From Methanobacteriota archaeon (GTDB lineage Archaea; Thermoplasmatota; Poseidoniia; Poseidoniales; Thalassarchaeaceae): a stretch of DNA of 54,915 nt. The DNA is taken from contig WTHQ01000039.1 of NCBI GenBank assembly GCA_011523055.1, positions 155,524 to 210,438 on the forward strand, read 5' to 3'. Below are positions 714-47,665 of the stretch, one piece after another. The stretch's first letter is position 1. Each line of letters begins with the position of its first letter. The position numbers and the translations under genes were made by a program. The notes beneath the pieces were generated by a model that ran no database searches, was not told where the DNA came from, and worked only from the letters and a program-made list of their open reading frames with translations.

Positions 714-3700
714 ATGGACACAAGACAGAAGAGATCCAGCATCACGATGACATTCCTCATGCTTTCGAGCTTGGTGGCAGTAATGGCAGTCCCGGCTCCT
801 GTCCAAGCTAGCGAGATCGTCCTGACCGATGCGATAAACATCGTGAACAGTGGCACGAACTCGGACAATATGGTGGCGGTTAATGCAGACTCAGAGGGCA
901 ACGTCCATTTTGTCTGGAGTAGGAATACGCAGCACCTCTACTACAAGATGCTTGGACCTGCCGGCGAGACGCTGATTTCCGAAACGCAGATCTCTAATCC
1001 AGGGGCCCATCAAGCATGGCACCCGGACGTCGCAATAGACTCAGAGGATAGGGTCCACATTGTTTGGGCGGATAGATCTGGCCAATGGACCATCTGGTAC
1101 CAAATGCTGGATCCAGCTATGCATGAGCAGGACGGAACGGCGGCGGTCGATGGACTGAATGGAATTTCGATCATTGATGATTATGAGATAAAAACCGCAT
1201 CTCAAGACCGTGATTGGCCAGCGATAGCAGTTGACTCCCAGGATAACGCTCACATTGTATGGCAAGACAACAGCGATCCCTTGGATCTATACTACTCTCA
1301 GACTCAAATCTACTATGAGATGGTCGAGATTGACGTATCTAGCAGAGAGGCACAGACAAAGATAGACGCCACGCTACTCACTCCCATAATCGGCATGAAG
1401 GGACATCCGGACATTGCAATTGACAGTGAAGACTTCGTTCAAGTTGTCTGGGACGATACCAGAGGTGGGAAAGTAGAGATGGTTGTCCCTATCGACACTT
1501 CAGGGTCCATGGGAACAGAGTGGGCAGACATGTGTACCGTATTTTACGGGGGTCAGTTCTCTTCCGGAGGCAACTTCATCGGACTAAAACCGATGTTAGA
1601 GCAAGCAAACATGACTGTGTTCGAAACACTTTACGGTATTGGTGGCGTACAGCAAGTTGCAGCCGCAACGTCAGGTTATTGCACAGCAGCTTACCAGACG
1701 GGAGGGTCTGGAAGCCAGGGGCCTAGGGCGAACCACCTTGGCCAAACGCCAACAGATACTTCTGGAGGAATAAGAAAACTCACCGGAGCTGTGTTGGGTG
1801 GGGCGTCCATATCCTTGAGTTACGATGGAGGCGGCCAAGGTTCTGAGGCGTGGGGCCCATCCTCGACATGGTCCTGCCTTTCTTGGAGAGACGCACAAGG
1901 CAGACTAGGAAACTTGGCGAATCCCCCCACTTCAGAAGACCACAGGTGGAACCCCAATGCCACAAAGATTGTGATCCCAATTTCTGATGAGAATGCGAAT
2001 GATGGAAGCCCTGAGGACGTCACGGACCGTGAAGCAGTAGAAGAGGCTCACGACGCATGCGTACTCGCTGGCATATCTCCTGTGCCTCTGTGGGCGGGGT
2101 CCGATAATTCTGTGGGATCACAAATGAGGGATCTAGCGGAATGCCCGAATAATCAGCCCGGAACGCCCTCTGTAGCTAGATATTGTCCAGGGGGAACACC
2201 TAGAACATCCCACGCACAAGGTGCCGTATATGCATTCCCAACCGGATCCACATCCGCATCGGAGCTTCAATTCATGGTCGAGGCACTCATCTACCTTGCG
2301 ACAAATGCGTCCAGAGAAATTTTCCTGACAGTCCTAGACCCTTACGCACTATTAGAAAATCCGTGGGTCGGATTCTCTCCCGGCCAGCCAGCAACGCAGT
2401 GCTTCCCACAATGCTCCGCAACCTCCGGCTCGAGGTACTACATAGAGGATGTCGGACCTTCACTCGACCTCGAGGGATATGGACATCTGGTTGTGGTCAA
2501 CGACACGAGAGTTACCCTACAAGATGCATACAGCCTACACCCCAGCGTAGCATTGGATAGCCAAGGCAACACCCACATAGCGTGGATGGATGGAAGGCCA
2601 TACGGCTTCGAACTAGACGTGAACTACGAGGTCTTCTACACCAGGTTGAAACTCAAGGGGTCCAGTAGCTGGGACGGTGCTAGTGATGGGCTGCCATCGT
2701 TCGGAATTAAGCAAATTATGGACTCTGCAATATCTAACGTTGAGGGTCTAGATTGGTTTGATGACAACCCTGATCGTGGACCCTATGATGCGACTTCATA
2801 CCTTCCGGGTATTCTGGTTGATGATTTCGACAATGTGCATATTGCTTGGTTAGACAACAGCAACATAAGTCAAGGCGAGTCGATAATGTACACTAGGTTG
2901 AACAGCACCACCGATGAGTATCCCAACGGATTCCCCACCCTCAACAACCTTGCTCTGGCCGTTCTAGACCAATGGGAAATATTCGAGGTCTCATCTTGGG
3001 AATCTGGGAAGCTTGGACCCAATTCAGGCCGTAATCCCCAACTCGGGACCCCTCCGGCCTTCGCCAATGATCTAGGCAGCGGGGCTCACGTTGCGTGGTC
3101 TGACTCCACTAAGTGCGGTGAAAGCAATAGTCCCAAGGAGACGCTCTGTTATGTCCACGTACTCACTGGCTTGGTGGACGTTGCACTTGCCCCATCCGAG
3201 ACATACTACCATGTCATCGAGCCAGGAGAGAGCACCATCTACAATCTCACCATAGACAATCCCACCCCCGGACCATCCGATCTCGTCGCAGATACGTTCC
3301 GCTTGACGGTGGAGAACGTACCGATGAATTGGAGTGCTACCCTGTACTATGCTTCCAATCATACTCCAATTTTCGAGTCCACACCCATCCACTTGAAGGG
3401 CAATTCGGACGGCCAGAACCTAGTGCCGCTCTACCTAAGGGTCAGAGCTCCTACAATTTACCAGGCCGAAGGAGACCAATTGGCAGAGATCAATGTCCGT
3501 GCAGTTTCGTACAAAGACCCTGCGATAGATGACGACCGCCAACTAGTCGTGCTGATGGACGTGGTCCATGGCATAGACCTCTCTACCATCAACAAGAACA
3601 TCGACGTCGAGCAAGGTGGATCTGGGACCTTTTCGATAATTGTCAGAAATACGGGCAATGTCTATGATACGTTTGCGTTCCACGACCCGACAACACTGGA

Positions 3701-5849
3701 CGGTCAAATGGAATGGGGGCTGCAGTTCGGATGGGGGGTCGATTTCCCCACTGAGGTTTCCCTAGATCCAGGCCAGGCTGTGACCAAGAACCTCCGCGTT
3801 ACAATACCCACATCTCAGACCCCCGGAACATACGTCATTTATCTGAAGGGATGGTCCACCGGCGAGCCGATATTTTCGATCGACCATGGTACCTATGACG
3901 TGTTAGGCCTATGGATTAACGTCTCCGTTAAGACCTCGGGCAATATAGTGTTCAAGATACCAGACGGAACAAACATGAACGTGCTACCAGGAGATTGTGC
4001 TGAGTTCGACATAGAGGTCACCAAGAATTACTCGCCAGGCTCATTGGTATTCACGACTCCAGGAGGGCCACAAGAACGCCCCCCTGACATATCGCAGAGT
4101 GTTTGGAGGTACGATCATTGGACCATCGATCTCGATTTCTCGGCAGCGCCCGGGGGGAACGGCATCCCTGATTCAGCTCCCAGGTACTTTGCAGTGGTAG
4201 GTAACCCATACATCGTCACTGCGAAAATGTGCTCTCCATATAATGCGACAGCTGGCTTTGGTGAGTCAGTCGTGGTGAGGGCCCATCTGGAGGGAACACC
4301 TGAAGTCAGAGACTCGGCTCTCCTATTGACAGATGTGATCCAGGTCTACGAGCTCGAAGCGGAGGTTGACACAGTTTTGCTGGACCTATATCCTGGCCAG
4401 GCTTTCCCACTCACGACCGAGGTGACGAACACAGGAAACGGACCCGATAGGTTTGACATCACCGTCGAATCGATCACTGGGCCCGAAGGAGCCTATATTT
4501 GGGATATCGACATCCCACGAGCTTACTTTGGCGAGCTATTGAGAGACGATTCCAAAGAATTCGATCTAATCATCAATGTCCCCGAAAAAACACTCGCTGG
4601 AACTTACAATGTCGTTCTGAACGTCCTGAGCGAAGAGGAGTTCGATGGAACTAGGATCAGAGACACCATCGACCTGCAGGTGCAAATTGGGGAGTTCCAC
4701 GACCTAAGAATCACGTTGGACCCTGCAATGGAATCAAAGATCAAGACAAGCGCACCAGGAAGAACCGTTCGATTCTTGATGAATCTGACCAATGCAGGCA
4801 ACGTACCAGATATTCCAATGCTCCACAATCATACCAAGCTCGGACAAGGAGGGGGATGGGACGCTGTTCCTGGCATGAATACACTTTCGAAGTGGATGAT
4901 CTCATTTGCACTGGTTGAGGATTTTGACACTGAATTCCCAAGAGAATCCCCCTGTCTTGCTGCAGATCCCAGCATAGAAAACGACCCAAGTCAATGCTAC
5001 CTCTCCACCACGAACACCGTCACCTTCCCCGAGATGGCAGCTTTCACCACCATCCAATTCGTAGCCATCATTTCAGTCAGTGACGAGGCTTCTCTCAGCG
5101 ATAGGATGATAGGAATAAAAGCCACATCCTCCCATGGTTCAGCAATAAATGGAGGCGACTTTGATGAAACTCCGCAATGGGACGACTCCTGCACACTCGA
5201 CGAGAACAAGGACGGACTCCCCGACAACTTCCCTCCGAATTGCGATAGTAATGAGCAAGTGCTCCAATTGATGCTCAGAGCACCTGATCTCAAGATTCTG
5301 TCAGCGGAATCTTCGCAATCCAGGGCTGCAGTTGGTGAGATGATATCGGTCACCGTCAAGTTGCAGAATATCGGAAACATCCACGCCACAGACGTTAGCG
5401 TGATACTCTGCGCAGATCAGAGCCCTTCAGATATCCGTAGGAATGGATGTGACGAGGACAACATAGTATACAGGCAGATGATTGAGGCAGTAATGCCAGT
5501 CTCCCAGTCCAGCAATCAGGAGCTGTTAGAAATCTCCTTGCTATACATTGTCGAAGCTGGATCGCAGGACATCGTCGTGTATGTTGACCCAGATAATGAC
5601 ATCATCGAGTCAGACGAAACTAACAATTACCTCTCCATGTCAGAGAAAATGGGCTCTAACAACCGGTTCCTTGACCCCCTTCTTCAGGCCGTCGCGACAT
5701 ACTCGGTACCTGTGATTATCATTGGTGCTACCATTGCCCTGGGAGCGGTCGCAGTCATTGTCATATGGGGTAGGAGAATCGAGGCAATGAGAGAATTTGC
5801 AGAGAAAAAGAGCATGATGACGTATTCGGATGAGGATATGGAATTCTAG
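714..5849 (+). CDS. Giant surface protein: beta-propeller repeats with inserted VWA domain, CARDB-like domains, C-terminal anchor
   Basis: This 1711-residue protein has an N-terminal signal peptide (basic RQKR, hydrophobic stretch, cleavage probably after VQAS near residue 33) and one C-terminal membrane helix (about residues 1663-1685) followed by a short charged tail, so most of it lies outside the cell. Seven copies of a blade-like motif (IAIDSxxxxHIVWxD) occur near residues 52, 103, 167, 231, 607, 702 and 780. A von Willebrand A domain interrupts the fourth copy: its metal-binding motif DTSGS is at about residue 261 and its last helix ends near 530. Further on are several NxGNxxDxF beta-sandwich repeats and a CARDB-like domain whose end reads DPDNDIIESDETNNY (about 1525-1640). 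The exact role is unknown; surface adhesion or substrate capture is inference. Its stop overlaps by 4 bases the stop of the convergent ArsR-type gene. Confidence 0.85.
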   Translation: MDTRQKRSSITMTFLMLSSLVAVMAVPAPVQASEIVLTDAINIVNSGTNSDNMVAVNADSEGNVHFVWSRNTQHLYYKMLGPAGETLISETQISNPGAHQAWHPDVAIDSEDRVHIVWADRSGQWTIWYQMLDPAMHEQDGTAAVDGLNGISIIDDYEIKTASQDRDWPAIAVDSQDNAHIVWQDNSDPLDLYYSQTQIYYEMVEIDVSSREAQTKIDATLLTPIIGMKGHPDIAIDSEDFVQVVWDDTRGGKVEMVVPIDTSGSMGTEWADMCTVFYGGQFSSGGNFIGLKPMLEQANMTVFETLYGIGGVQQVAAATSGYCTAAYQTGGSGSQGPRANHLGQTPTDTSGGIRKLTGAVLGGASISLSYDGGGQGSEAWGPSSTWSCLSWRDAQGRLGNLANPPTSEDHRWNPNATKIVIPISDENANDGSPEDVTDREAVEEAHDACVLAGISPVPLWAGSDNSVGSQMRDLAECPNNQPGTPSVARYCPGGTPRTSHAQGAVYAFPTGSTSASELQFMVEALIYLATNASREIFLTVLDPYALLENPWVGFSPGQPATQCFPQCSATSGSRYYIEDVGPSLDLEGYGHLVVVNDTRVTLQDAYSLHPSVALDSQGNTHIAWMDGRPYGFELDVNYEVFYTRLKLKGSSSWDGASDGLPSFGIKQIMDSAISNVEGLDWFDDNPDRGPYDATSYLPGILVDDFDNVHIAWLDNSNISQGESIMYTRLNSTTDEYPNGFPTLNNLALAVLDQWEIFEVSSWESGKLGPNSGRNPQLGTPPAFANDLGSGAHVAWSDSTKCGESNSPKETLCYVHVLTGLVDVALAPSETYYHVIEPGESTIYNLTIDNPTPGPSDLVADTFRLTVENVPMNWSATLYYASNHTPIFESTPIHLKGNSDGQNLVPLYLRVRAPTIYQAEGDQLAEINVRAVSYKDPAIDDDRQLVVLMDVVHGIDLSTINKNIDVEQGGSGTFSIIVRNTGNVYDTFAFHDPTTLDGQMEWGLQFGWGVDFPTEVSLDPGQAVTKNLRVTIPTSQTPGTYVIYLKGWSTGEPIFSIDHGTYDVLGLWINVSVKTSGNIVFKIPDGTNMNVLPGDCAEFDIEVTKNYSPGSLVFTTPGGPQERPPDISQSVWRYDHWTIDLDFSAAPGGNGIPDSAPRYFAVVGNPYIVTAKMCSPYNATAGFGESVVVRAHLEGTPEVRDSALLLTDVIQVYELEAEVDTVLLDLYPGQAFPLTTEVTNTGNGPDRFDITVESITGPEGAYIWDIDIPRAYFGELLRDDSKEFDLIINVPEKTLAGTYNVVLNVLSEEEFDGTRIRDTIDLQVQIGEFHDLRITLDPAMESKIKTSAPGRTVRFLMNLTNAGNVPDIPMLHNHTKLGQGGGWDAVPGMNTLSKWMISFALVEDFDTEFPRESPCLAADPSIENDPSQCYLSTTNTVTFPEMAAFTTIQFVAIISVSDEASLSDRMIGIKATSSHGSAINGGDFDETPQWDDSCTLDENKDGLPDNFPPNCDSNEQVLQLMLRAPDLKILSAESSQSRAAVGEMISVTVKLQNIGNIHATDVSVILCADQSPSDIRRNGCDEDNIVYRQMIEAVMPVSQSSNQELLEISLLYIVEAGSQDIVVYVDPDNDIIESDETNNYLSMSEKMGSNNRFLDPLLQAVATYSVPVIIIGATIALGAVAVIVIWGRRIEAMREFAEKKSMMTYSDEDMEF

Positions 5850-6592
5850 CGGACCAACCACCACGGGAGAGGAGACCCCTCCCCACCCGCGATCACATTA
5901 CCCTTGCTTTTTGCTAGGTCCCTGATCAATCTGTCACGCAGACCCGCCATTATCCCCTCAGCCTGCGATGATTGAATCCTGATGCTTTGGGAGAATAGGT
6001 CCAAGTCAACAGGCCTCCTTGGCTGATCTAGCATTGCGTGCGCAAGTTGGCGCTCTTCATAGTTCTCAGTCAATTCATCTATGCTTGGAGCCACTTTCAT
6101 CATCACCTGTTGGTGCAAAGCAACTAGAGCGTCTCTTTGTTCATCAATCTGCTCCAGCCTGTTTTGAAGCTCAACGAGAATTGACATGGCCTCGTTCATT
6201 GGAATGCTTCTTCGAGTGCCCATCTTGTCGATAATCCCCTCTAAACCTGTAGGCAATTTCGTCGACAGGCGCATCGGTCCCCCTGAGGGCATCATCCTAC
6301 CACTCGCCTTGAACAAACTAGGTCCTAAATCCAGCCTCAAACAGTATGACTCGGTGACCCTGTAAACCTTTTTTGGAGGACCGCCCTTTTCAGACGGAAC
6401 CTTCTCTACCGAAACAAATCCAGCCTCTTCCAGGATATCTAGGTGCTTTACTACTGCTTGTTGGCTTATGTTTAGAAGGTCTGAAAGTTGCAAAGCGTAA
6501 TGCGGCTCCTTTGTCAACAACTCTAATATCTCTCTCCTTGACTTATTCTCCAGTATTGACAGGAACTCATCGAACCCGACCACACTAACCAA
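5846..6592 (-). CDS. ArsR-type winged-helix transcriptional regulator
   Basis: The first ~80 residues are a winged helix-turn-helix of the archaeal ArsR type: SRREILELLTKEP, then the recognition segment LNISQQAVVKHLDILEEAG and a wing rich in Lys/Pro (SEKGGPPKKVYRV). The C-terminal half contains a long coiled-coil-like helix (about residues 125-175) that probably dimerises it. No metal-binding Cys pair is visible, so it need not sense metal. The start shown is a TTG with a TATA-like element (ggtttattcg, minus strand, 6624-6615) about 27 bases upstream, which would make the transcript leaderless; a GTG at 6583 is an alternative. It lies last in the minus-strand group topoVI B, topoVI A, membrane protein, regulator, and its target is unknown. 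Confidence 0.85.
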   Translation of the reverse strand: MVSVVGFDEFLSILENKSRREILELLTKEPHYALQLSDLLNISQQAVVKHLDILEEAGFVSVEKVPSEKGGPPKKVYRVTESYCLRLDLGPSLFKASGRMMPSGGPMRLSTKLPTGLEGIIDKMGTRRSIPMNEAMSILVELQNRLEQIDEQRDALVALHQQVMMKVAPSIDELTENYEERQLAHAMLDQPRRPVDLDLFSQSIRIQSSQAEGIMAGLRDRLIRDLAKSKGNVIAGGEGSPLPWWLVR

Positions 6593-29882: not shown

Positions 29883-32800
29883 GTGATTGTAGATTATGGT
29901 AGAAGAAAAGAAGTGGGCAGATCCCTCTTCCTCGTGCTATTGATGATTGTAAGCCTTCAGACGCCTACGCTAATCCCAACCACGACGGATACATCGAATG
30001 AGGGTACTACATACCGATCCCAATATCAAGACCAAATCCAATCAGAGGACATCGATACCACCACAATTTACTCACCGGATTTCACGATGCTCCCGGATCA
30101 CCCAGCCTTTCATGATGCATCATGGTCAGATCCCGGCCTTCTCTACGGGAGAATAACCGATGTCTCCTTCCTCAGCGACGGATACAAATTCATGGTCGAA
30201 GAAACCGAAACGGAGGACCACGATAACGATGGAATCAATGACCTGGATGATTTGGATGACGATAACGATGGCATCTCCGACCTCATCGAGCGGTTTGACG
30301 GATGCTATGGCACAGATCCATACGACCATGATAATGATGGCGTGAAGGACGAGTTCGACTACGATGACGACAACGATGGCATTTTGGAGGGCCCTATCGA
30401 TTACACACAAGGCACAGACCCCTGGAATGTTACGTCAGATCGATACGTGGACCCCCAGACTACTCACCCATGGACGGGACTCCCTGTGGGAACCGGGTAC
30501 TTGGTGGATCAGAACCCGTATGACCACGACAATGACGGCGTCACGGATGAGGACATAGATGGATCCGGAAAGGGATCATATGACGAGGATGACGACAACG
30601 ACGCTAGGATTGACCAGTTCGTCTGGCCATGTGACTTTGACGGTGATGGCCTTCAAGATTATTGGGACGCAGATGACGACAACGACGGCATCTCCGATAT
30701 CTGGGACACACACCCATGGAATAGCTCTGAGACACGAAACATCACAGCCACCGCACAAAATTGGAGCGCAGCAGAATCATGGGCATCAAGCAAGACACAT
30801 CAGATTTCAATAACCGAGAACGGTTTTTCCACACCTGACCTGGACATAGAAATCGGAGACTCGGTGAGGTGGACCAATGATGACATCGTGAACCGCACTG
30901 TGACGGCTGCAGATGGCTCATTCGACAGCGGGGTTATCCTCCCCGGCCAATCCTTTGTTCAATTATTTGAAACTGAGGGATTGACTAGGTACTCTGAAAC
31001 TGCCGGCACTGGAATCCCTGATGGGACCATTAGTACAACTGCCGCAACAGGCCTACCTTTCCCAGATGCGTTCAACCTCGACTTCGACACATATGGAAAG
31101 GAAAAACTCGACTTCGCGTTCAAGGAGCAGAATCTTTGGCACCCACGGGACCCCTCTTTCAACCAGATAGTGGATGGAGACCTAGACGGCGATGGCCTTC
31201 CAAACTTCATCGATCCAGACAATGACAATGATGGAACCCCAGACTCGGCCGACACAGATGACGACAATGATGGCCTGTTGGACATGTGGGACATTGATGA
31301 CGACAACGACGGTATACCGGACAACTGCCTGAACGTCCTAAGCCCCCAGGACAACATGGACGGTTTCTCAGAGTACTTCGGCCAGACCCCCGGCGTAGAC
31401 TGTGAAATCGACTACGACAGGGACGCTGACGACGACGCCTACAGAGCGATCGACTCTGACTATGACTTGGTTTGGGATTGGAAGGATACGGACCTCGGTG
31501 CAGCCGATCCCGCGGACAACCTATTGGGGAATCCAGCAATCGATCCCAGTGACCTACCGTATGACCTGGACAACGACGGTATTCTGAATCAAGACGACCC
31601 ATATCCAATGGTTCACTCTGATGTCATTGACACATGGAACTGCGAGTCACTGCAGAATCCAAATCCGGTGAACCCCGATCCTCGTTGCCTCACTGAGCGC
31701 AAATCATACACGGGGAACAACGATTGGGACGGGGACGGCTTTTCGAATTGGGAGGATGTCGATGACGACAACGATGGCGTTCTCGATTGGCTTGACATCG
31801 ACGAGAACTGCGACTTGGATGACGACAACGACTTGCATCTTCTCAACGGCTCCAGGTACAGGGACGACGGCCCAAACTCCATAGACACGGACATCGATGG
31901 CGACGGCCTTTCGAATGACGAGGACTGGGATGACGACAACGACGGCATTTCCGACCTCTACGACCCAGATGATGGAAACTGCGGAGTTGTGGACATTGAC
32001 TCGACAGACCAATTCGACAATTCCTACTCCCATCAGGACGGCGATATCATTGACGGAAGTGAGGACGGTCAAATTTACACCGCTACTGGGACCCTACAAT
32101 GGGACATGTTCTGGCACTTCAGTCCATTCTTCGAGGAGCACGGCTTCGTCCTGCCGTACAACGGTTATCAGTCCGACTCCACACTAGGTCCTCCCACAAT
32201 CGTGTCAAACGGGAACGTACCTGAGATGTACTGGCACGTGATGATGAAGTGGAGCCCATGGAATGGAAACAACTACTTCGATATTGACATGGACGGAGAC
32301 TCCCTGGTCAATGGCATCGACGTGGACATGGACGCTGACGGGGTTCCAAACTGGTGGGATAGGGACGAGGGCTCCGATGGGAGATTGGATGTAAACGACC
32401 CGGCCTACGGAGGCTCTCTTGATGACGGGGAATGCGACTTGTCCATGTCCTTCCTACTCGGCTTGGATGACGATGAGGTAAGCTGTGGCGTGGCATTGGC
32501 ATGGCTCTATGGCTTCCCCCTGAGCCAAGCCAGATCCAGCAATGGAGTACCATTCGTATTACCATACTCCTCCAGACCGGACCCGCAATACACCGACGGC
32601 CCCTACAACGGGGAGAACTCCGCGGGGATCAACGACTTTACCTGCGAAAACAATTGTTTCCATTTCGACTTCCTCGGACCAGCCGATGCGGGCCCTTCAG
32701 CTGCAGTCACGTTCGATGACATGATCAACAACAGGGATCTGTGGACAGCCTACGTAGGAATCAACTTCGGCATGTTCCAATGGGTTTCCGACGGCAATGG

Positions 32801-35800
32801 GAACCTATTCCCAGATGAATTTGCAGACCTCATCGACAACAACGAGGACCCAGATGACGACTGTGGTGCTCCGGTAACTGGGACACCAAACCCCTCCTGC
32901 ATGGTCAACGACACAGCCGACTTGGATGACGATTTCGATGGGGTTTTCGACCACTGGGATGTTGACGACGATAACAATGGGGTCTGGGACTTCTTCGAGG
33001 TTGATGTAAATGATGACCTGGATGATGACTCAAACACCGAACCCCCAGGGAGCTTCTTCACAGGATACAATTGCGATGATCAGGACGACGATGGCACAGA
33101 CACAGACCCCGATGGAGATGGCTGGTACCAGTCTGTCTGGGACAGGGGGAGACTAGGCCAAGGACTGTTATTCCCACAATACTATGACGTCGACAACGAC
33201 AATGATGGCGTCCCGGACGGAGAGGATCCGGATGACGACAACAACGGCGTACTAGACGTCGATCAAGAACTAATCTGCTTCCAAGGAGAGGAACAGAGTC
33301 CATGGGACCACGACAACGACGGGATACCAGATTGGGCGGACTCAGATTGGGATGGAGATGGAATCTCGAACACGATCGAGCTAGCAGGTGGCGGAGCCTC
33401 CCATCCAATCGCTCCATGGGACCACGACAACGACGGACTCAGAGACGACATCGACCTAGATGACGACGAGGATGGCATGAACGACGAGGACGAGGTCATG
33501 TTGTGGCCAACCAGATTCAACTCCAACTCTACCAATCCATGGGACCATGACGACTATGGAACTGGATCAGGACTATATGACCCCACGAACGCGTCCACTG
33601 GCCCCGATGCCCAAGATGAAGACGATGACTCAGATGGACTCCCGGACATCGATTGGGATCATCTCGAAGAGAATCAATTCTGCACTGATTCAAATGGGGC
33701 CCAGCAACCTGCAAGCGACTGGGACAACGATAACGACTGCATATTGGACGCGGATGACAAGCCACCGACGAGAATCACGCTGAACCCAGTGCAAACAGTA
33801 TGGTTGGATGCCCAGTTCCCCGCAGTCTTCAGCGGACGCGTCGACGTCCTCGACTTGGAGACCGGGGCGTTCGTACCCGGCCCAGACCTCCCGGTGAGGA
33901 TAGTGGTCGAATATGCAAGGAACTCGACCGAAGTCCTTCGAACAGTAGAGGTTCTTACCAACGAGGGCGGGAACTTCACAGTGGGGCAATACCTCTACCC
34001 AGAGGACATTGAGGTAGGGCCACCATCGAGGTACAACCTCCGTGCGGACGTAATTGAGATGTTCGCACACGACGGCTCCTCCTCAACCCCAACCCCCCTA
34101 GAGGTTAGGGCGAACACCACGGTGGACTATGTTTCATGGACGTACTTCAGAAGCGACGAGCAACCTCTCTTTGTGGACTTCAAGGTGCACTACGACGCAG
34201 ACTGGGAGCGAGGAATCTTTGACAACAGGATAAAGCACGCCCCAGTCTCATTCACCGTAGCAGGTGGCCCGTTCGGGAACCGCACGGCACCAACGCTCTT
34301 CGATGGATACGGGTTTGGCTACCGGGCGGACTCAAACGGATGGGTCTCCCTCACCTTCGTCCAGCAACAGGGCGCCCAGGGTTTCTGGAAACAGGTACGA
34401 TGGAACTCCACCATGGACAACGGCGAAGGACAACCAAGTGGCGGGTACGAGGAAATCGTCTGGGATGACAACGCGAAGGAACACCAGTACGTCTCGAGAT
34501 ACAACTACACGAACACCTCACTGCCAGTGGGGGACTACGAGTTCATCGGATTCTCTAGACCTGACTTGGGTGACGAATGGCCTTTCCCCCAACTGAACGG
34601 CAGCGAATCTGAAACATTCTACATTCGTTCAATGCACAGGATGTACATCGAGGCCTTGATTCACACGACTTCATTGAGGCCTGTCTACTTCTGGGACGCC
34701 ACTCAGTTCATCGGCTCCTCGTTTGGGGCATGGAGAGCACTCTTCCATGCTCCATCGCTCCAAGCAGCGGGAATATCCTACGACAATGCTAGCATCGGAA
34801 AACCATACCCAATTCTGTGGGATGGAACATCCGAGGGACTAACTGGGGAGGCTGCGAAGCTGAGACCGTTCCTATCAGCCAATCTGACCCACTGGTCGAT
34901 AGCCATGCAGAACGGAGGAGACTTCAACGCACCGCCATGCGGGCCGTCGAACCCCGCCGACCCGTTCAGCCAAACGAGGTGCGAGATCATACCAGAGCTA
35001 TTCACCGGCGAGTCCCTGAGGGTGGTCGGAGAGGTCTACAACCGCACCTTCGTCCCCTGGCCAAGTGACCCAATCGCCCTTCAAGTCGACTTAGACCAGA
35101 ATCTAATATTCTCCGGGGCACAGGAAACCGGGTTCGCTAGGGCGCCAAACATGGTTGACGGCAAAGCCCAGTTCGATTACAACTGGACCTGGTACTCGCA
35201 ATACGCAGCCGGCACATACGGCGTGAAGGCGGACTTCACGAACTCAAACTTCTACTTCACGGGCAACCAGACATCCGTGCTGTCAGCGACGGGTGCCTAC
35301 GTGAACGTCACCGTGATCGGTACGAGCCAATTCCTTCCAGTCGAGGACTCTAGGCTCTATCGCGGAGTGAACAGGACAGTTGAGGTCAGGTTGGTCGACA
35401 ACTCCCTGCAACCACTGAGGGAGGTCCCCGTCACCTACTCTTGGGACGCTGACGGCACCAACGGACTCACCTCCACCGACAAGAATGGAATATTCAAGGT
35501 AAACCTCTCAATCGGCCAAGAGCACCCCCTCGGGGCTTTCACTCTCTCATACACATACTCCGGTGACTCACTGCACCAGTCATCGGCGGGGGAAACGGAG
35601 CTCTGGGTGGTCTCACGGACGTTCATCGATCTCCAATCCAGCGTCTCAGGGGCTCTAGTTAGCGGACAAGACTGGTTCTTTACCGCACAGGTCACAGATG
35701 ACAACAGAACTGCGTTCACAAAGGACTCGGGCCAAGCACTGGACGGCTGCGGTGAAAATGGAGGCAATGTCACATTGATCCTGGAGGGATTGGACTTCGA

Positions 35801-37865
35801 GGACAGGATCCACAGGAAGATCGTAGATACCCTGTGCCCCAGTGCTGGTGCCATAACCCACCAGATGACCCTAGACCCCGAGATACTCACTTCCGATGCA
35901 CAGTCCTTCCTCCCTGATGGGTTCGGGCCAGTTAATGTGATACTCAGGTTCAATGAGAACCTCCCGCACGAGGGGTGCGGTCCACTCGGCCCCAACGCAC
36001 TCGAGATCGCCGGCGCCTGGGACGAGTGCACCCTTGACATCTACAACGACCACTACAGGAGAGTTCTCCAGTTCCAAGAGGAAGGATTCTACCTCCTAGG
36101 AGAGACTTCGTTGAGTGTGGACGAGCAGACGGTATACACCTCAGAGGCCGATCCCATAACCGGGGAATCCATCCAAAAGCCGATGACGGTTACTGGCCAG
36201 CTGGTAGATGAGCTCGGGAGAAACCTCAGTTTCCGAAACGTGAAGGTCACGTACGAAATGCTGGGCAGCCAGCTTGGGATACGAACATGCCTACCTGGCA
36301 CGACGGATGTCAATGGATTCTTCGAGATCCTCTGCTCACTGGACGGAGTCCAAGCAGGCCAGGCCAAGGTCCAGGTGTCCTACAACTCATGGGAAAACGC
36401 AGATCGCTACAGGTATCTCAACTCGACGAAGACCATGCTGTTCCCGGTCTACTCCAACTCTACGCTGCAGATGATCGAGATCGGGCCATTCAGGAACGAT
36501 GTCGACACATACACGTTTGCCAATGGTAGCACATTCCCCGTCCTCTACCTGAAGGAATCATTCCACTTCGATGCAAGACTGACTCAGGTGAATGGGAATC
36601 CAGTCGGTGGGAAATGCCTGAACATCTATCTCGACCCCGAGACCAACACCAGACCTTTCGCCACGGCGAGGACAAATGACGGAACTGGCTCAGTGGAGTG
36701 GTTTTCAGGCGACAAGGAGGATAATCCGAGTCAGAGGGGAGTCGACCCAAGTGGAGACCAACTGGAGGGCTTCAGGACCGTGAGAATCGCCTATGAGCCC
36801 ACAAGATCGGTCCCAGGAGGCTGTGAAATCGAAAATAGCCCCGTCATCAACGGCTCATACGTTGATGTCGAAGTCCTTGTCCAGAGCAGGGTGGACATCC
36901 TACTCAGTCAACAGTGGGCACGCCCAGAGGGGTACCAGGTAGGTGAAATCGTCGAGGGCTCAGTAGCCATCCTTCGTGATAGAATAGACCTGGCGGTGGA
37001 AGGCCAAACCGTGGTGTTCTCCCAGTACTACAACAACGGAACTGGCTGGGAGCTCTTCAAGGTCTACTTCACGACCACCACTGAGCAAGGCTCCGCCAAC
37101 TTCAGCTTCGAGTACACGGGGAGAGATCTCCCAGGCGAGCAATCCGCCGCGCTGGGTGGACCTGAGGCCGTCAACGGGGAATGGAAAGTCGAGGTGGAGT
37201 TCCAAGGCGACTATCGGTTCGTCAGCTCCGAATTGAGCAATACGCCCAGAATCAAACTTGCAGACCCAGTCGACGCAGAGCAACAGAGCTTCTTCACTGC
37301 TAGAGTGATGACCGTCTTGGCACTGATCCTAGTCTCGACACTCCTGTTGGCAGCCTACATGTACAGAAACTACGTGGAGAGGAGGAGAATCGAGGTACTC
37401 AGAGGAATATTGACAGATTCGCTGTGGGCACTGCAGGGACGGAACTCCTACATCGAGACCATCTTCAACTGCTACAAGGACCTGGTTAAGTTCTTCAGGC
37501 AGAAGGGAGCAATGAAGAAGGTGTACGAGACCACTAGGGAATTCGAGTACGCCGTCAACAAGATGCTCGGTGGAATCGCCCCTCCAGAGGACCTATCAGA
37601 GTTCTTCAGCATATTCGAGGAAGCTAGGTATTCGGACCATGAGATCGGGGCTGACCAACGAGACAGGGCCATAGCCTCGCTACAGAACATAATCACCCAC
37701 CTTTCCAAGTCATTGGGGGAGAGCATGCTAAGCCGTATCCGGTCTGAAGGGATGGAGATGTACGGGGCCGCTACGAAGGCTGGAGCCTTCGTGGACTCTG
37801 AGGGACAGGTGAGAATCGCTGGCGAACAGGATGACTCCGAGGAGAAGACAGGCTTCAACATATGA
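29883..37865 (+). CDS. Giant Ca-repeat surface protein with DUF4129-like cytoplasmic tail
   Basis: A 2660-residue protein with an N-terminal signal (about residues 10-35). Residues about 111-1292 carry dozens of Asp-rich motifs such as DDDNDGISD and DHDNDGV, calcium-binding thrombospondin-type-3-like. A cupredoxin-like segment interrupts these (about 306-382: FSTPDLDIEIGDSVRWTND, ILPGQSFVQLF), but it lacks the Cys and the final His/Met copper ligands. Residues about 1300-2470 are beta-sandwich repeats of the kind seen in bacterial carboxypeptidase-regulatory or Big domains (VTYSWDADG, GKCLNIYLDP). A membrane helix (about 2474-2498) follows, and the ~160-residue cytoplasmic tail resembles DUF4129, with TREFEYAV and SIFEEARYS. 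GTG start with ggtgg upstream. Function is unknown; a rigid, Ca-stabilised stalk is inference. Confidence 0.88.
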   Translation: MIVDYGRRKEVGRSLFLVLLMIVSLQTPTLIPTTTDTSNEGTTYRSQYQDQIQSEDIDTTTIYSPDFTMLPDHPAFHDASWSDPGLLYGRITDVSFLSDGYKFMVEETETEDHDNDGINDLDDLDDDNDGISDLIERFDGCYGTDPYDHDNDGVKDEFDYDDDNDGILEGPIDYTQGTDPWNVTSDRYVDPQTTHPWTGLPVGTGYLVDQNPYDHDNDGVTDEDIDGSGKGSYDEDDDNDARIDQFVWPCDFDGDGLQDYWDADDDNDGISDIWDTHPWNSSETRNITATAQNWSAAESWASSKTHQISITENGFSTPDLDIEIGDSVRWTNDDIVNRTVTAADGSFDSGVILPGQSFVQLFETEGLTRYSETAGTGIPDGTISTTAATGLPFPDAFNLDFDTYGKEKLDFAFKEQNLWHPRDPSFNQIVDGDLDGDGLPNFIDPDNDNDGTPDSADTDDDNDGLLDMWDIDDDNDGIPDNCLNVLSPQDNMDGFSEYFGQTPGVDCEIDYDRDADDDAYRAIDSDYDLVWDWKDTDLGAADPADNLLGNPAIDPSDLPYDLDNDGILNQDDPYPMVHSDVIDTWNCESLQNPNPVNPDPRCLTERKSYTGNNDWDGDGFSNWEDVDDDNDGVLDWLDIDENCDLDDDNDLHLLNGSRYRDDGPNSIDTDIDGDGLSNDEDWDDDNDGISDLYDPDDGNCGVVDIDSTDQFDNSYSHQDGDIIDGSEDGQIYTATGTLQWDMFWHFSPFFEEHGFVLPYNGYQSDSTLGPPTIVSNGNVPEMYWHVMMKWSPWNGNNYFDIDMDGDSLVNGIDVDMDADGVPNWWDRDEGSDGRLDVNDPAYGGSLDDGECDLSMSFLLGLDDDEVSCGVALAWLYGFPLSQARSSNGVPFVLPYSSRPDPQYTDGPYNGENSAGINDFTCENNCFHFDFLGPADAGPSAAVTFDDMINNRDLWTAYVGINFGMFQWVSDGNGNLFPDEFADLIDNNEDPDDDCGAPVTGTPNPSCMVNDTADLDDDFDGVFDHWDVDDDNNGVWDFFEVDVNDDLDDDSNTEPPGSFFTGYNCDDQDDDGTDTDPDGDGWYQSVWDRGRLGQGLLFPQYYDVDNDNDGVPDGEDPDDDNNGVLDVDQELICFQGEEQSPWDHDNDGIPDWADSDWDGDGISNTIELAGGGASHPIAPWDHDNDGLRDDIDLDDDEDGMNDEDEVMLWPTRFNSNSTNPWDHDDYGTGSGLYDPTNASTGPDAQDEDDDSDGLPDIDWDHLEENQFCTDSNGAQQPASDWDNDNDCILDADDKPPTRITLNPVQTVWLDAQFPAVFSGRVDVLDLETGAFVPGPDLPVRIVVEYARNSTEVLRTVEVLTNEGGNFTVGQYLYPEDIEVGPPSRYNLRADVIEMFAHDGSSSTPTPLEVRANTTVDYVSWTYFRSDEQPLFVDFKVHYDADWERGIFDNRIKHAPVSFTVAGGPFGNRTAPTLFDGYGFGYRADSNGWVSLTFVQQQGAQGFWKQVRWNSTMDNGEGQPSGGYEEIVWDDNAKEHQYVSRYNYTNTSLPVGDYEFIGFSRPDLGDEWPFPQLNGSESETFYIRSMHRMYIEALIHTTSLRPVYFWDATQFIGSSFGAWRALFHAPSLQAAGISYDNASIGKPYPILWDGTSEGLTGEAAKLRPFLSANLTHWSIAMQNGGDFNAPPCGPSNPADPFSQTRCEIIPELFTGESLRVVGEVYNRTFVPWPSDPIALQVDLDQNLIFSGAQETGFARAPNMVDGKAQFDYNWTWYSQYAAGTYGVKADFTNSNFYFTGNQTSVLSATGAYVNVTVIGTSQFLPVEDSRLYRGVNRTVEVRLVDNSLQPLREVPVTYSWDADGTNGLTSTDKNGIFKVNLSIGQEHPLGAFTLSYTYSGDSLHQSSAGETELWVVSRTFIDLQSSVSGALVSGQDWFFTAQVTDDNRTAFTKDSGQALDGCGENGGNVTLILEGLDFEDRIHRKIVDTLCPSAGAITHQMTLDPEILTSDAQSFLPDGFGPVNVILRFNENLPHEGCGPLGPNALEIAGAWDECTLDIYNDHYRRVLQFQEEGFYLLGETSLSVDEQTVYTSEADPITGESIQKPMTVTGQLVDELGRNLSFRNVKVTYEMLGSQLGIRTCLPGTTDVNGFFEILCSLDGVQAGQAKVQVSYNSWENADRYRYLNSTKTMLFPVYSNSTLQMIEIGPFRNDVDTYTFANGSTFPVLYLKESFHFDARLTQVNGNPVGGKCLNIYLDPETNTRPFATARTNDGTGSVEWFSGDKEDNPSQRGVDPSGDQLEGFRTVRIAYEPTRSVPGGCEIENSPVINGSYVDVEVLVQSRVDILLSQQWARPEGYQVGEIVEGSVAILRDRIDLAVEGQTVVFSQYYNNGTGWELFKVYFTTTTEQGSANFSFEYTGRDLPGEQSAALGGPEAVNGEWKVEVEFQGDYRFVSSELSNTPRIKLADPVDAEQQSFFTARVMTVLALILVSTLLLAAYMYRNYVERRRIEVLRGILTDSLWALQGRNSYIETIFNCYKDLVKFFRQKGAMKKVYETTREFEYAVNKMLGGIAPPEDLSEFFSIFEEARYSDHEIGADQRDRAIASLQNIITHLSKSLGESMLSRIRSEGMEMYGAATKAGAFVDSEGQVRIAGEQDDSEEKTGFNI

Positions 37866-45262: not shown

Positions 45263-47665
45263 TCATTCTTCCTCGTACTGGTAATCCTCATCATACTCCT
45301 CGTGATAGTCGTATTCATCATCTTGGATTCTTGTCCTTCGCCTCGGTTTCTTACTCCCTTTATTCAGCATAGTCTGCAAGACGAACAGCCCTCCTAGGCA
45401 GACGACAATCGCTCCCATTACGGGGAAGAGTGGGAAACTCTCGAGGTCCTCCTTGGTCTGAACCTCTGAATCATACGGCCTGTAGTCTGAGTTGTCACCT
45501 ACCCCGTCCAAATCAGAGTCCTTTGACTCGTCAGGATTCATGGGGAACTTGTCATTATTGTCTCCAACACCGTCCCCATCAGTGTCCTTCCACTCGGACT
45601 GAAGATTTGGGAACGCATCCTCGTTGTCGCCGAAGCCATCTCCGTCGGAGTCAGAGGATTCAGAGGGGTCATCGGGGAACACGTCAGCATTGTCCCCCAC
45701 TCCGTCACTATCCGAGTCCACAGTTTCAGTACTATCATATGGGAAAGCATCGCCATTGTCACCGACCCCGTCCCCGTCCGAGTCAACGGTCTCGCTAGGG
45801 TCGTTTGGGAAGGCGTCACTGTTGTCCCCGAAACCGTCACCGTCCGAGTCCTGTGTTTCAAGGGGATTGCTAGGGAACGCATCGGCATTGTTACCTACCC
45901 CATCACCATCCATGTCTCCAGTTTCAGTTTCGTCGTTTGGGAAGGCATCCCCGTTGTCCCCGACCCCGTCCCCGTCCGAGTCAACGGTCTCATATGGATT
46001 CAGAGGAAACGCGTCTGCGTTGTCCCCAACCCCGTCTCCATCGGAGTCAATCGATTCAGCAGGGTCATTTGGAAACACATCGGCATTGTCCCCGACCCCG
46101 TCCCCGTCTCGATCACGCCAATCCGTTGAATCCATTGGGAATGCATCTGAGTTATCTCCATAGCCATCTCCGTCCGTATCCGTCGTTTCAGATGGGTCGC
46201 CGGGGAACGCGTCGGCATTGTTGCCTACACCATCCCCATCGGTGTCAATTGTCTCATTGGGATCGTTCGGGAAAGCATCACCATTGTCACCAATTCCATC
46301 ACCATCGCTGTCAGCCCATTCACCTGGCCACAAGGGAAAAGCATCGCCATTGTCACCGACCCCGTCCCCGTCCGAGTCAACGGTCTCAAGCGGATCCTGG
46401 GGGAACACGTCAGCATTGTCCCCCACTCCGTCACCATCTGTGTCGAACCATTCATTAGGGTCGTTCGGGAACACATCCATTGGGAAGCAGTACCCGTCTC
46501 CGTCACTGTCTCTCCATTCGGTCGGGTCGTTATCGCACTCATCTGTATTCGAACCTACCCCGTCTCCATCGGCATCCAACCACTCGTCTGGGTTGTAGAT
46601 GAATGCGTCTACGTCGTCTCGGTATCCATCTCCATCTGAGTCCCGAACGAAGCCTTGTATGGCCCAATCAAATGCCTCGTCCGCCCAAACACTAGGTCCA
46701 TCGAATGGGAAGAAATCATTGTGCATTCCATCATTTATTCTCCAGTGGGAAACTCTCTCTCCAGAGCCGCAGTTGGGATAGTCGAACACATCAGTTTCAA
46801 TTCCAGGTAGTTGAGAGGAAAGATCCAGGCTTCCCTGAAAAACACGATTTTGGTCGCACCCGTATCTGTTTGCCCAGTTTGAAAGAGTGGTGTTCGCCCC
46901 GGGATGTGGCGATGGACCAATTGGATTGCCTGCCATAGAGACCTGGGGAGCGCCGTCGTAATCGACGTAATCGTCCTCTGTTGCATGAACGTGAAGGATG
47001 TCCGGACTACCCGTGTTCAAGCACTTGTTGAAATCATTCCATGTTACTCCGTTCAGCGCCACGATTGATTTTATCATGTAGCCTTTCTCACATGCCATTC
47101 TATGGCTCATGAAGGCTCCGTTGGAGAATCCGATGAAGATAATCCCCTCGGGATCCGCACCGTAGTTTTGCACAGCATCGTCAACAATAGATTCCAGCCA
47201 GCTCACATCATCAGTGTATGTTGGCCCCCATGATCCACCTTGAATGCAGCATGCATCAGTAGCGTTCCAGAAGCGTGGTAGTGGGAAGGCTTGCATGTGC
47301 CTAAGACCATCGGGTTTCAGGAGTAGATGCTCGTTTTCGTGAACGCTTTCTGTTAGTACCATTCTATCTACTATCCTCTGTCCATATCCTCCGAATCCAT
47401 GCAATGCAACGACGAGCGGTAACGGGCGCGAGTAATCATGGCCACCCGGCATTTCGAGGACCGCAGTGCGATCCGACGGACCGACGGTTACAGTAGTGTG
47501 GGCTGCTGTGTATTGTATTGGCGATCCTGTATCCGAAGAAGTGTAGTTTTTGGTTTGCTCTTGAAATTCGATCTCAGAAGCAGACATCATCGAGGAAATC
47601 GATACAAAGACTATCATCACAGCCATTAGAAGGGCCGTCTTCCTTTGCCTAACGCGGGTTTGCAT
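45263..47665 (-). CDS. Secreted PHB-depolymerase-like esterase with Ca-binding repeat stalk
   Basis: An 800-residue exported protein. A signal peptide (residues about 1-30) is followed by an alpha/beta-hydrolase of the polyhydroxybutyrate-depolymerase/feruloyl-esterase type (about 45-340): PLVVALHGFGG (oxyanion side), IGFSNGAF (nucleophile Ser), an acid in HATEDDYVDYDG and the His in GMHNDF. Then an array of 18 units of 22 residues (342-737) built on DSDGDGVGDN.DAFP.DP.ET, thrombospondin-type-3-like, and a C-terminal membrane helix (about 746-765) with an acidic tail. It would sit outside the cell on a Ca-stabilised stalk; the substrate (polyester or carbohydrate ester) is unknown. The minus-strand TATA is 25 bases from the ATG. 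Confidence 0.9.
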   Translation of the reverse strand: MQTRVRQRKTALLMAVMIVFVSISSMMSASEIEFQEQTKNYTSSDTGSPIQYTAAHTTVTVGPSDRTAVLEMPGGHDYSRPLPLVVALHGFGGYGQRIVDRMVLTESVHENEHLLLKPDGLRHMQAFPLPRFWNATDACCIQGGSWGPTYTDDVSWLESIVDDAVQNYGADPEGIIFIGFSNGAFMSHRMACEKGYMIKSIVALNGVTWNDFNKCLNTGSPDILHVHATEDDYVDYDGAPQVSMAGNPIGPSPHPGANTTLSNWANRYGCDQNRVFQGSLDLSSQLPGIETDVFDYPNCGSGERVSHWRINDGMHNDFFPFDGPSVWADEAFDWAIQGFVRDSDGDGYRDDVDAFIYNPDEWLDADGDGVGSNTDECDNDPTEWRDSDGDGYCFPMDVFPNDPNEWFDTDGDGVGDNADVFPQDPLETVDSDGDGVGDNGDAFPLWPGEWADSDGDGIGDNGDAFPNDPNETIDTDGDGVGNNADAFPGDPSETTDTDGDGYGDNSDAFPMDSTDWRDRDGDGVGDNADVFPNDPAESIDSDGDGVGDNADAFPLNPYETVDSDGDGVGDNGDAFPNDETETGDMDGDGVGNNADAFPSNPLETQDSDGDGFGDNSDAFPNDPSETVDSDGDGVGDNGDAFPYDSTETVDSDSDGVGDNADVFPDDPSESSDSDGDGFGDNEDAFPNLQSEWKDTDGDGVGDNNDKFPMNPDESKDSDLDGVGDNSDYRPYDSEVQTKEDLESFPLFPVMGAIVVCLGGLFVLQTMLNKGSKKPRRRTRIQDDEYDYHEEYDEDYQYEEE
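45455..46642 (-). repeat. Coding array of 18 x 66-bp units
   Basis: Eighteen direct repeat units of 22 codons, each based on DxDGDGVGDNxDAFPxDPxExx, run without a break. Some are almost identical at DNA level: a 50-base stretch is repeated exactly at 45744-45793 and 46338-46387, nine units apart, and another 35-base stretch recurs eleven units apart (45674 and 46400). This points to recent unit exchange or gene conversion. Confidence 0.93.

Follow-up and report, generated by a model that had tools for sequence, protein, structure and literature searches.

The gene at positions 714-5849 (+) of the window, the whole stretch of 54,915 nucleotides analysed here, encodes a 1711-residue protein in which blade 4 of a β-propeller is interrupted by a domain identified through profile comparison as a divergent VWA. 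The order of the domains and the point of insertion are conserved, as is the locus. We consider it probable that this is a single-pass surface protein displaying, on a long stalk, a head made of one seven-bladed propeller with the VWA domain, a judgement that covers this layout jointly with the metal-dependent adhesion or receptor role discussed below.

To our knowledge, a VWA domain built into a seven-bladed propeller is otherwise known only from chordate integrins. The archaeal protein is a VWA-in-propeller protein outside animals, with an insertion site and a blade family of its own, and adds an apparently independent second example of this arrangement. In the literature searched, most of it papers available without subscription, there was no report of the architecture in archaea. 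Why the combination is favoured can now be addressed by comparison, as both parts still occur separately in related archaea. Among the planktonic archaea of surface waters, Ca. Poseidoniales have been described as the most abundant and as lacking cultured representatives (PMC6461757). For work on how their cells meet the environment, a surface protein that is near-universal and encoded at a fixed locus offers a concrete target.

Layout of the protein and its propeller

Orthologues of the gene are full length and free of stops. A putative signal peptide at residues 1-32 (714-809, +) is indicated by a hydrophobic segment at residues 8-32 that is conserved across loci. The head extends to about nt 3173, and the stalk that follows (3174-5663, +) consists of about six β-sandwich (Ig-like) domains. 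When the 1711-residue protein was searched against Pfam, the stalk alone was matched, by a NEW3-like domain at residues 1227-1303 and by CARDB at residues 1523-1641; neither propeller nor VWA was recognized. An AlphaFold2 model of the stalk (pLDDT 79.8, pTM 0.46) displayed about six β-sandwiches and a terminal helix. Hydropathy and a helix in this model point to a transmembrane segment at residues ~1660-1686 (5691-5771, +), after which a cytoplasmic tail of 25 residues (GRRIEAMREF...DEDMEF; 5772-5846, +) is conserved across orthologues. An earlier, sequence-only reading of this DNA had assigned the propeller and VWA to positions 714-2620, a range that stops within blade 5 and falls short of both the end of the head and that of the gene.

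Blades were located with leave-one-blade-out profiles. For each blade, the remaining six blades of 71 orthologues yielded a profile, which was then scanned along residues 30-985. As a result, exactly seven A-B hairpins were identified, with their tryptophans at residues 68, 118, 183, 246, 624, 712 and 795, matching the seven blade motifs claimed in the sequence-only reading. These were the top seven positions with every profile, and no eighth hairpin rose above background within residues 30-985. In the shuffle control, six of the seven blades beat 1000/1000 shuffles and blade 7 beat 996/1000. Profile scan and model place blade 1 at 855-1001, blade 2 at 1014-1208, blade 3 at 1209-1397, blade 5 at 2532-2738, blade 6 at 2796-3008 and strands A-C of blade 7 at 3039-3173 (all +). 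Strands A and B of blade 4 (HPDIAIDSEDFVQVVWDDTRGG; 1398-1469, +) were assigned by profile scan, model and junction alignment.

The remainder of blade 4 lies beyond the insert. The same reading had taken HLVVVNDTRVT as the strand on which the propeller resumes. This is a real strand, strand D of blade 4 (2490-2522, +; alignment and model), but it is preceded by strand C, which had been overlooked. With a profile made from strand C of the other six blades, we found EIFLTVLDP (residues 536-544), ~290 residues past the blade-4 tryptophan, to be the best C-strand match between residues 248 and 640 and the best unclaimed match in the protein, at a score reached by 3 of 1000 shuffles. This strand (SREIFLTVLDP; 2313-2351, +) stands directly after the last VWA helix, and its block in the head model has a pLDDT of 77-93. 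There are six D-type strands, one after strand C in each of blades 1-6. Because blade 7 has strands A, B and C without D, while an equivalent strand stands at the N-terminus (LTDAINIV...; 816-845, +), strand accounting and the secondary structure of the model suggest that the N-terminal strand completes blade 7 and closes one ring in velcro fashion.

The head was modelled with AlphaFold2 using residues 30-985 and 71 sequences. Confidence was moderate (mean pLDDT 69.9, pTM 0.68); by 10-residue blocks, pLDDT was ~85 in blades 1-4, ~60 in the VWA and ~66 in the remaining propeller. The order of strands in the model is compatible with four-stranded blades. Foldseek aligned 813-830 columns of the head with 5mum, 5mvh and 7esl, each a single seven-bladed propeller (394-419 residues); TM-scores by target length were 0.55-0.59 and the RMSD was 9-10 Å, global values that are moderate. 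An alignment span of this size agrees with one ring in which the insert takes up a large gap. The three structures, of the GH145 or polysaccharide-lyase type, have the overall ring in common with the archaeal head; they differ in being enzymes or inactive relatives, in having no VWA and in their sequences (7% identity). The fold of 7esl is seven-bladed (PMC8377490). Profile scan, model and Foldseek agree on seven four-stranded blades in one ring, the closure itself being deduced from strand accounting rather than viewed. The structure prediction that had been proposed as a check has come out, at moderate confidence, in favour of one seven-bladed propeller; neither a failure of the motifs to close into one propeller nor a VWA lying between two propellers was seen in the strand accounting, the model or the relatives. 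RIVW/LVIVD-type repeats are short tandem repeats of archaeal and bacterial surface proteins, named after an IVW-type motif and predicted to form propellers (PMC2447325); their likeness to the blades of the 1711-residue protein is one of motif resemblance only.

The inserted domain and its predicted metal site

The insert occupies residues ~253-533 (1470-2312, +), in the B-C loop of blade 4. Profile scan and model uphold the earlier placement of a VWA inside this blade, with DTSGSM beginning at residue 261 and the domain ending at ~533, where strand C follows. Both connections between VWA and blade are just a few residues long, TRGG on the way in and NASR or NNSR on the way out, and an invariant Arg-Glu pair (residues 534-535) links the last VWA helix to strand C. 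The junctions coincide in 31/31 aligned proteins, including paralogues at 31-41% identity.

The Pfam VWA model (PF00092) had no match anywhere in the source genome and, among eight members of the family, a weak match in one. Searching PDB sequences with the VWA alignment gave nothing up to an E-value of 10. An ordinary Pfam-recognised VWA was ruled out by the PF00092 and PDB nulls, and profile-profile comparison was needed. With hhalign, the insert matched a group of VWAs designated f5 (99.8%, E 1.8e-30; best of 20 column shuffles 0.062), the f5 VWAs matched 12 classical VWAs (96.5%, E 1e-9; best of 20 column shuffles 0.0085), and the insert matched the classical VWAs directly (88.8%, E 2.5e-6; best of 20 column shuffles 0.016). 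This chain of profile matches identifies the insert as a divergent VWA domain. The order of its strands and helices is compatible with an alternating β/α Rossmann-like fold, at a pLDDT of only ~60. The f5 VWAs (L153, L169-L173), from four genomes of another Thermoplasmatota family, are of the same subfamily and have DTSGSM, ESWGPGTSW and IPISDE in common with the insert; they differ in being compact and classical-looking and in their setting of Ig-like repeats, where the stretches tested contained no blades.

Residues D261, S263 and S265 of the MIDAS DxSxS motif (1494-1508, +), together with D425 in PISDE (1986-1988, +), are invariant in 71/71 aligned orthologues. By alignment with the compact f5 VWAs, the Ser/Thr of the site was placed at residues 384-385, in WGPxS/T-T/N-W (1863-1868, +), and is likely the fifth ligand. 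With the Ser/Thr placed in this manner, the insert has the DxSxS, Thr/Ser and Asp elements of a VWA MIDAS. Six cysteines of the insert are conserved or invariant across orthologues, as expected of an extracellular domain, and most residues invariant throughout the family, paralogues included, fall in the VWA.

Distribution, gene order and origin

A sample of 390 Thermoplasmatota genomes was searched with the VWA profile. The profile was present in 123 of 127 Poseidoniales, the four without a match being draft genomes, in none of the 8 genomes of the class's third family and in 4 of 255 others, all of them f5. The search of other Poseidoniales for the same domain order, suggested along with the structure prediction, reveals an architecture that is nearly universal in the order. 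Called an unusual adhesin design in the earlier reading, it is the rule within Poseidoniales and was absent from the other Thermoplasmatota sampled; integrin αI, which that reading left out, is a well-known analogue. Named relatives come from MAGs and single cells of Ca. Thalassarchaeaceae and Ca. Poseidoniales.

Both Poseidoniales families have a common gene order at the locus, consisting of DUF2299, the propeller-VWA gene, a convergent ArsR-like regulator, in some cases a small TM protein, and topoisomerase VI A and B. The ArsR-like winged-helix gene lies at 5846-6592 (-) of the window, and is a possible regulator of surface-protein expression.

Propellers without the insertion also occur. 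L139, a VWA-free relative from the same class, has seven evenly spaced, uninterrupted blades of the same type. L213 and L215 (Poseidoniales, genome G070) have 13 blades of this type in two groups of 6-7 and are apparently double propellers without VWA. All three have the blade type in common with the 1711-residue protein but not its insertion. The simplest reading is a single insertion before Poseidoniales diversified, followed by vertical descent. Recent transfer by a virus or mobile element was rejected; the viral-contig pattern matches encode no relative, and synteny at the locus extends throughout the order.

Some genomes hold one or more divergent paralogues. In L048:2284-5250 and L049:2406-5702 (genomes G041 and G029), an extra insert of ~150-260 residues, which matched no Pfam family, lies inside the VWA, so that one domain sits within a VWA that itself sits within a propeller. 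In L047:2854-5250 (G054), the overall architecture is kept while the MIDAS is broken (PTNGYM for DTSGSM, GVE for SDE), and this paralogue may use the fold without metal.

Proposed function and likeness to integrins

The B-C and D-A loops of β-propellers share one face. By this rule, rather than by direct viewing, the VWA should project from that face, like the αI domain of integrins. Emerging from the B-C loop of blade 4 and held by only a few residues at each end, it would be firmly seated on the propeller, and the six or so β-sandwiches of the stalk would lift the head off the membrane. We infer that the MIDAS (DxSxS, Ser/Thr, Asp) holds a divalent cation and binds an acidic group on a partner, candidates being another cell, a particle or a cell-surface polymer. 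Ligand binding may move the last VWA helix. Because this helix leads directly to strand C of blade 4, the propeller could feel the movement, although such coupling is speculative.

The explanation that we favour, and regard as probable, is a metal-dependent adhesion or receptor protein with a VWA-in-propeller head on a stalk, resembling integrin αI by convergence. The adhesin function suggested in the earlier reading is plausible. Published work on these archaea ascribes adhesion to archaellum, thrombospondin and flotillin genes; neither a propeller nor a VWA is mentioned (PMC6461757). In one coastal study, MGII cells in the North Sea were mostly free-living (PMC6864105), which argues against a simple role as particle adhesin, and the loss of the MIDAS in L047 indicates that ligand binding is not the sole possible use of the fold. 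A further-reaching proposal is that the protein evolved independently as an archaeal equivalent of the integrin α head. As a receptor sensitive to force or to ligand, it would respond to binding at the VWA metal site with a shift of the last helix; the propeller would change via strand C of blade 4, and the stalk and conserved tail would transmit a signal or strengthen adhesion. We regard this reading, which would make the protein a core surface receptor of a whole order of marine archaea, as quite unlikely.

Taking into account that the gene is nearly universal and its gene order fixed, which are more typical of a core role in the envelope than of adhesion in a particular niche, the protein could instead be a constitutive part of the coat, with metal-dependent contacts of the VWA between copies or with the glycan coat holding a lattice and outside adhesion being secondary. 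An S-layer is not mentioned in the published description of Poseidoniales MAGs (PMC6461757), and the stalk has a weak Foldseek match to the S-layer protein 8opr, a match of limited weight as Ig-like repeats match many folds. However, a long stalk, a large head and a single TM helix resemble a receptor more than a lattice subunit, domain searches of the protein detected no known S-layer domain, and some genomes have divergent paralogues. We judge such an envelope role to be rather unlikely.

The best structural neighbours of the head in Foldseek, namely sialidases, GH145-type propellers, a rhamnose-glucuronate lyase and PHL/PLL lectins, raise the alternative of a surface enzyme or carbohydrate-binding protein, whose propeller would be active as in the glycoside hydrolases, polysaccharide lyases and lectins of this fold and whose VWA would be a lid or docking domain. 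The likeness is one of fold only, at 6-14% identity; there is no Asp-box, and no Pfam or NCBIfam enzyme family covers the head. The concentration of family-wide invariant residues in the VWA also argues against this role, which we consider very unlikely. Highly improbable is the view that two separate propellers flank the VWA or that the insert is not a VWA, to which the silence of Pfam on both domains and the low model confidence in the insert might lend weight. With four hairpins before the insert and three after it, two closed rings of normal size cannot be built; strand C of blade 4 follows the insert, and Foldseek alignments span the gap to single seven-bladed rings. Two separate propellers were rejected on this strand accounting and Foldseek, and the profile chain to VWAs lies far above shuffles.

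For the favoured adhesion or receptor protein, the closest design is that of vertebrate integrin αI. Chordate integrin α chains with αI have a seven-bladed propeller with an inserted MIDAS-bearing VWA, β-sandwich legs, one TM helix and a short tail, and each of these is found in the archaeal protein. The integrin VWA is inserted between blades 2 and 3 (PMC12422189, PMC3192720), whereas the archaeal one lies in the B-C loop inside blade 4. The archaeal protein had no Pfam FG-GAP match, no match to a Cage regex and no GAP tripeptide. No DxDxDG-like Ca2+ loop was found in the head, a single unrelated one being present at residue 1496, and the membrane-proximal GFFKR is missing, the tail beginning GRRIEAMREF. 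Its blades are of a different family, its VWA has six conserved cysteines, and it has no known β partner; a search of the genome for integrin β (PF00362) gave no match, but control genomes were silent too. Since every integrin-defining motif tested failed (Cage/FG-GAP, Ca2+ loops, insertion site, GFFKR), integrin homology was rejected and the likeness looks convergent. Shared ancestry of the whole design with integrin α is almost certainly not the explanation: besides the overall layout, αV, α5 and αIIb chains are among the Foldseek matches of the head and αX among those of the stalk, but the integrin TM-scores are poor (0.12-0.23 by target length), the motifs and blade-4 insertion speak against it, and the αI insertion arose no earlier than the early chordates (PMC12422189).

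Two other genes of the window encode large proteins with surface features. A second giant surface protein, secreted and of 2660 residues, is encoded at 29883-37865 (+) and has a weak Big_1 match and a DUF4129 match near its C-terminus. The gene at 45263-47665 (-), possibly one of the MGII 'thrombospondin' genes, encodes a surface-anchored hydrolase of 800 residues that combines an esterase/phospholipase-like domain (Abhydrolase_2) with weak TSP_3 repeats, a TM segment and a very acidic tail.
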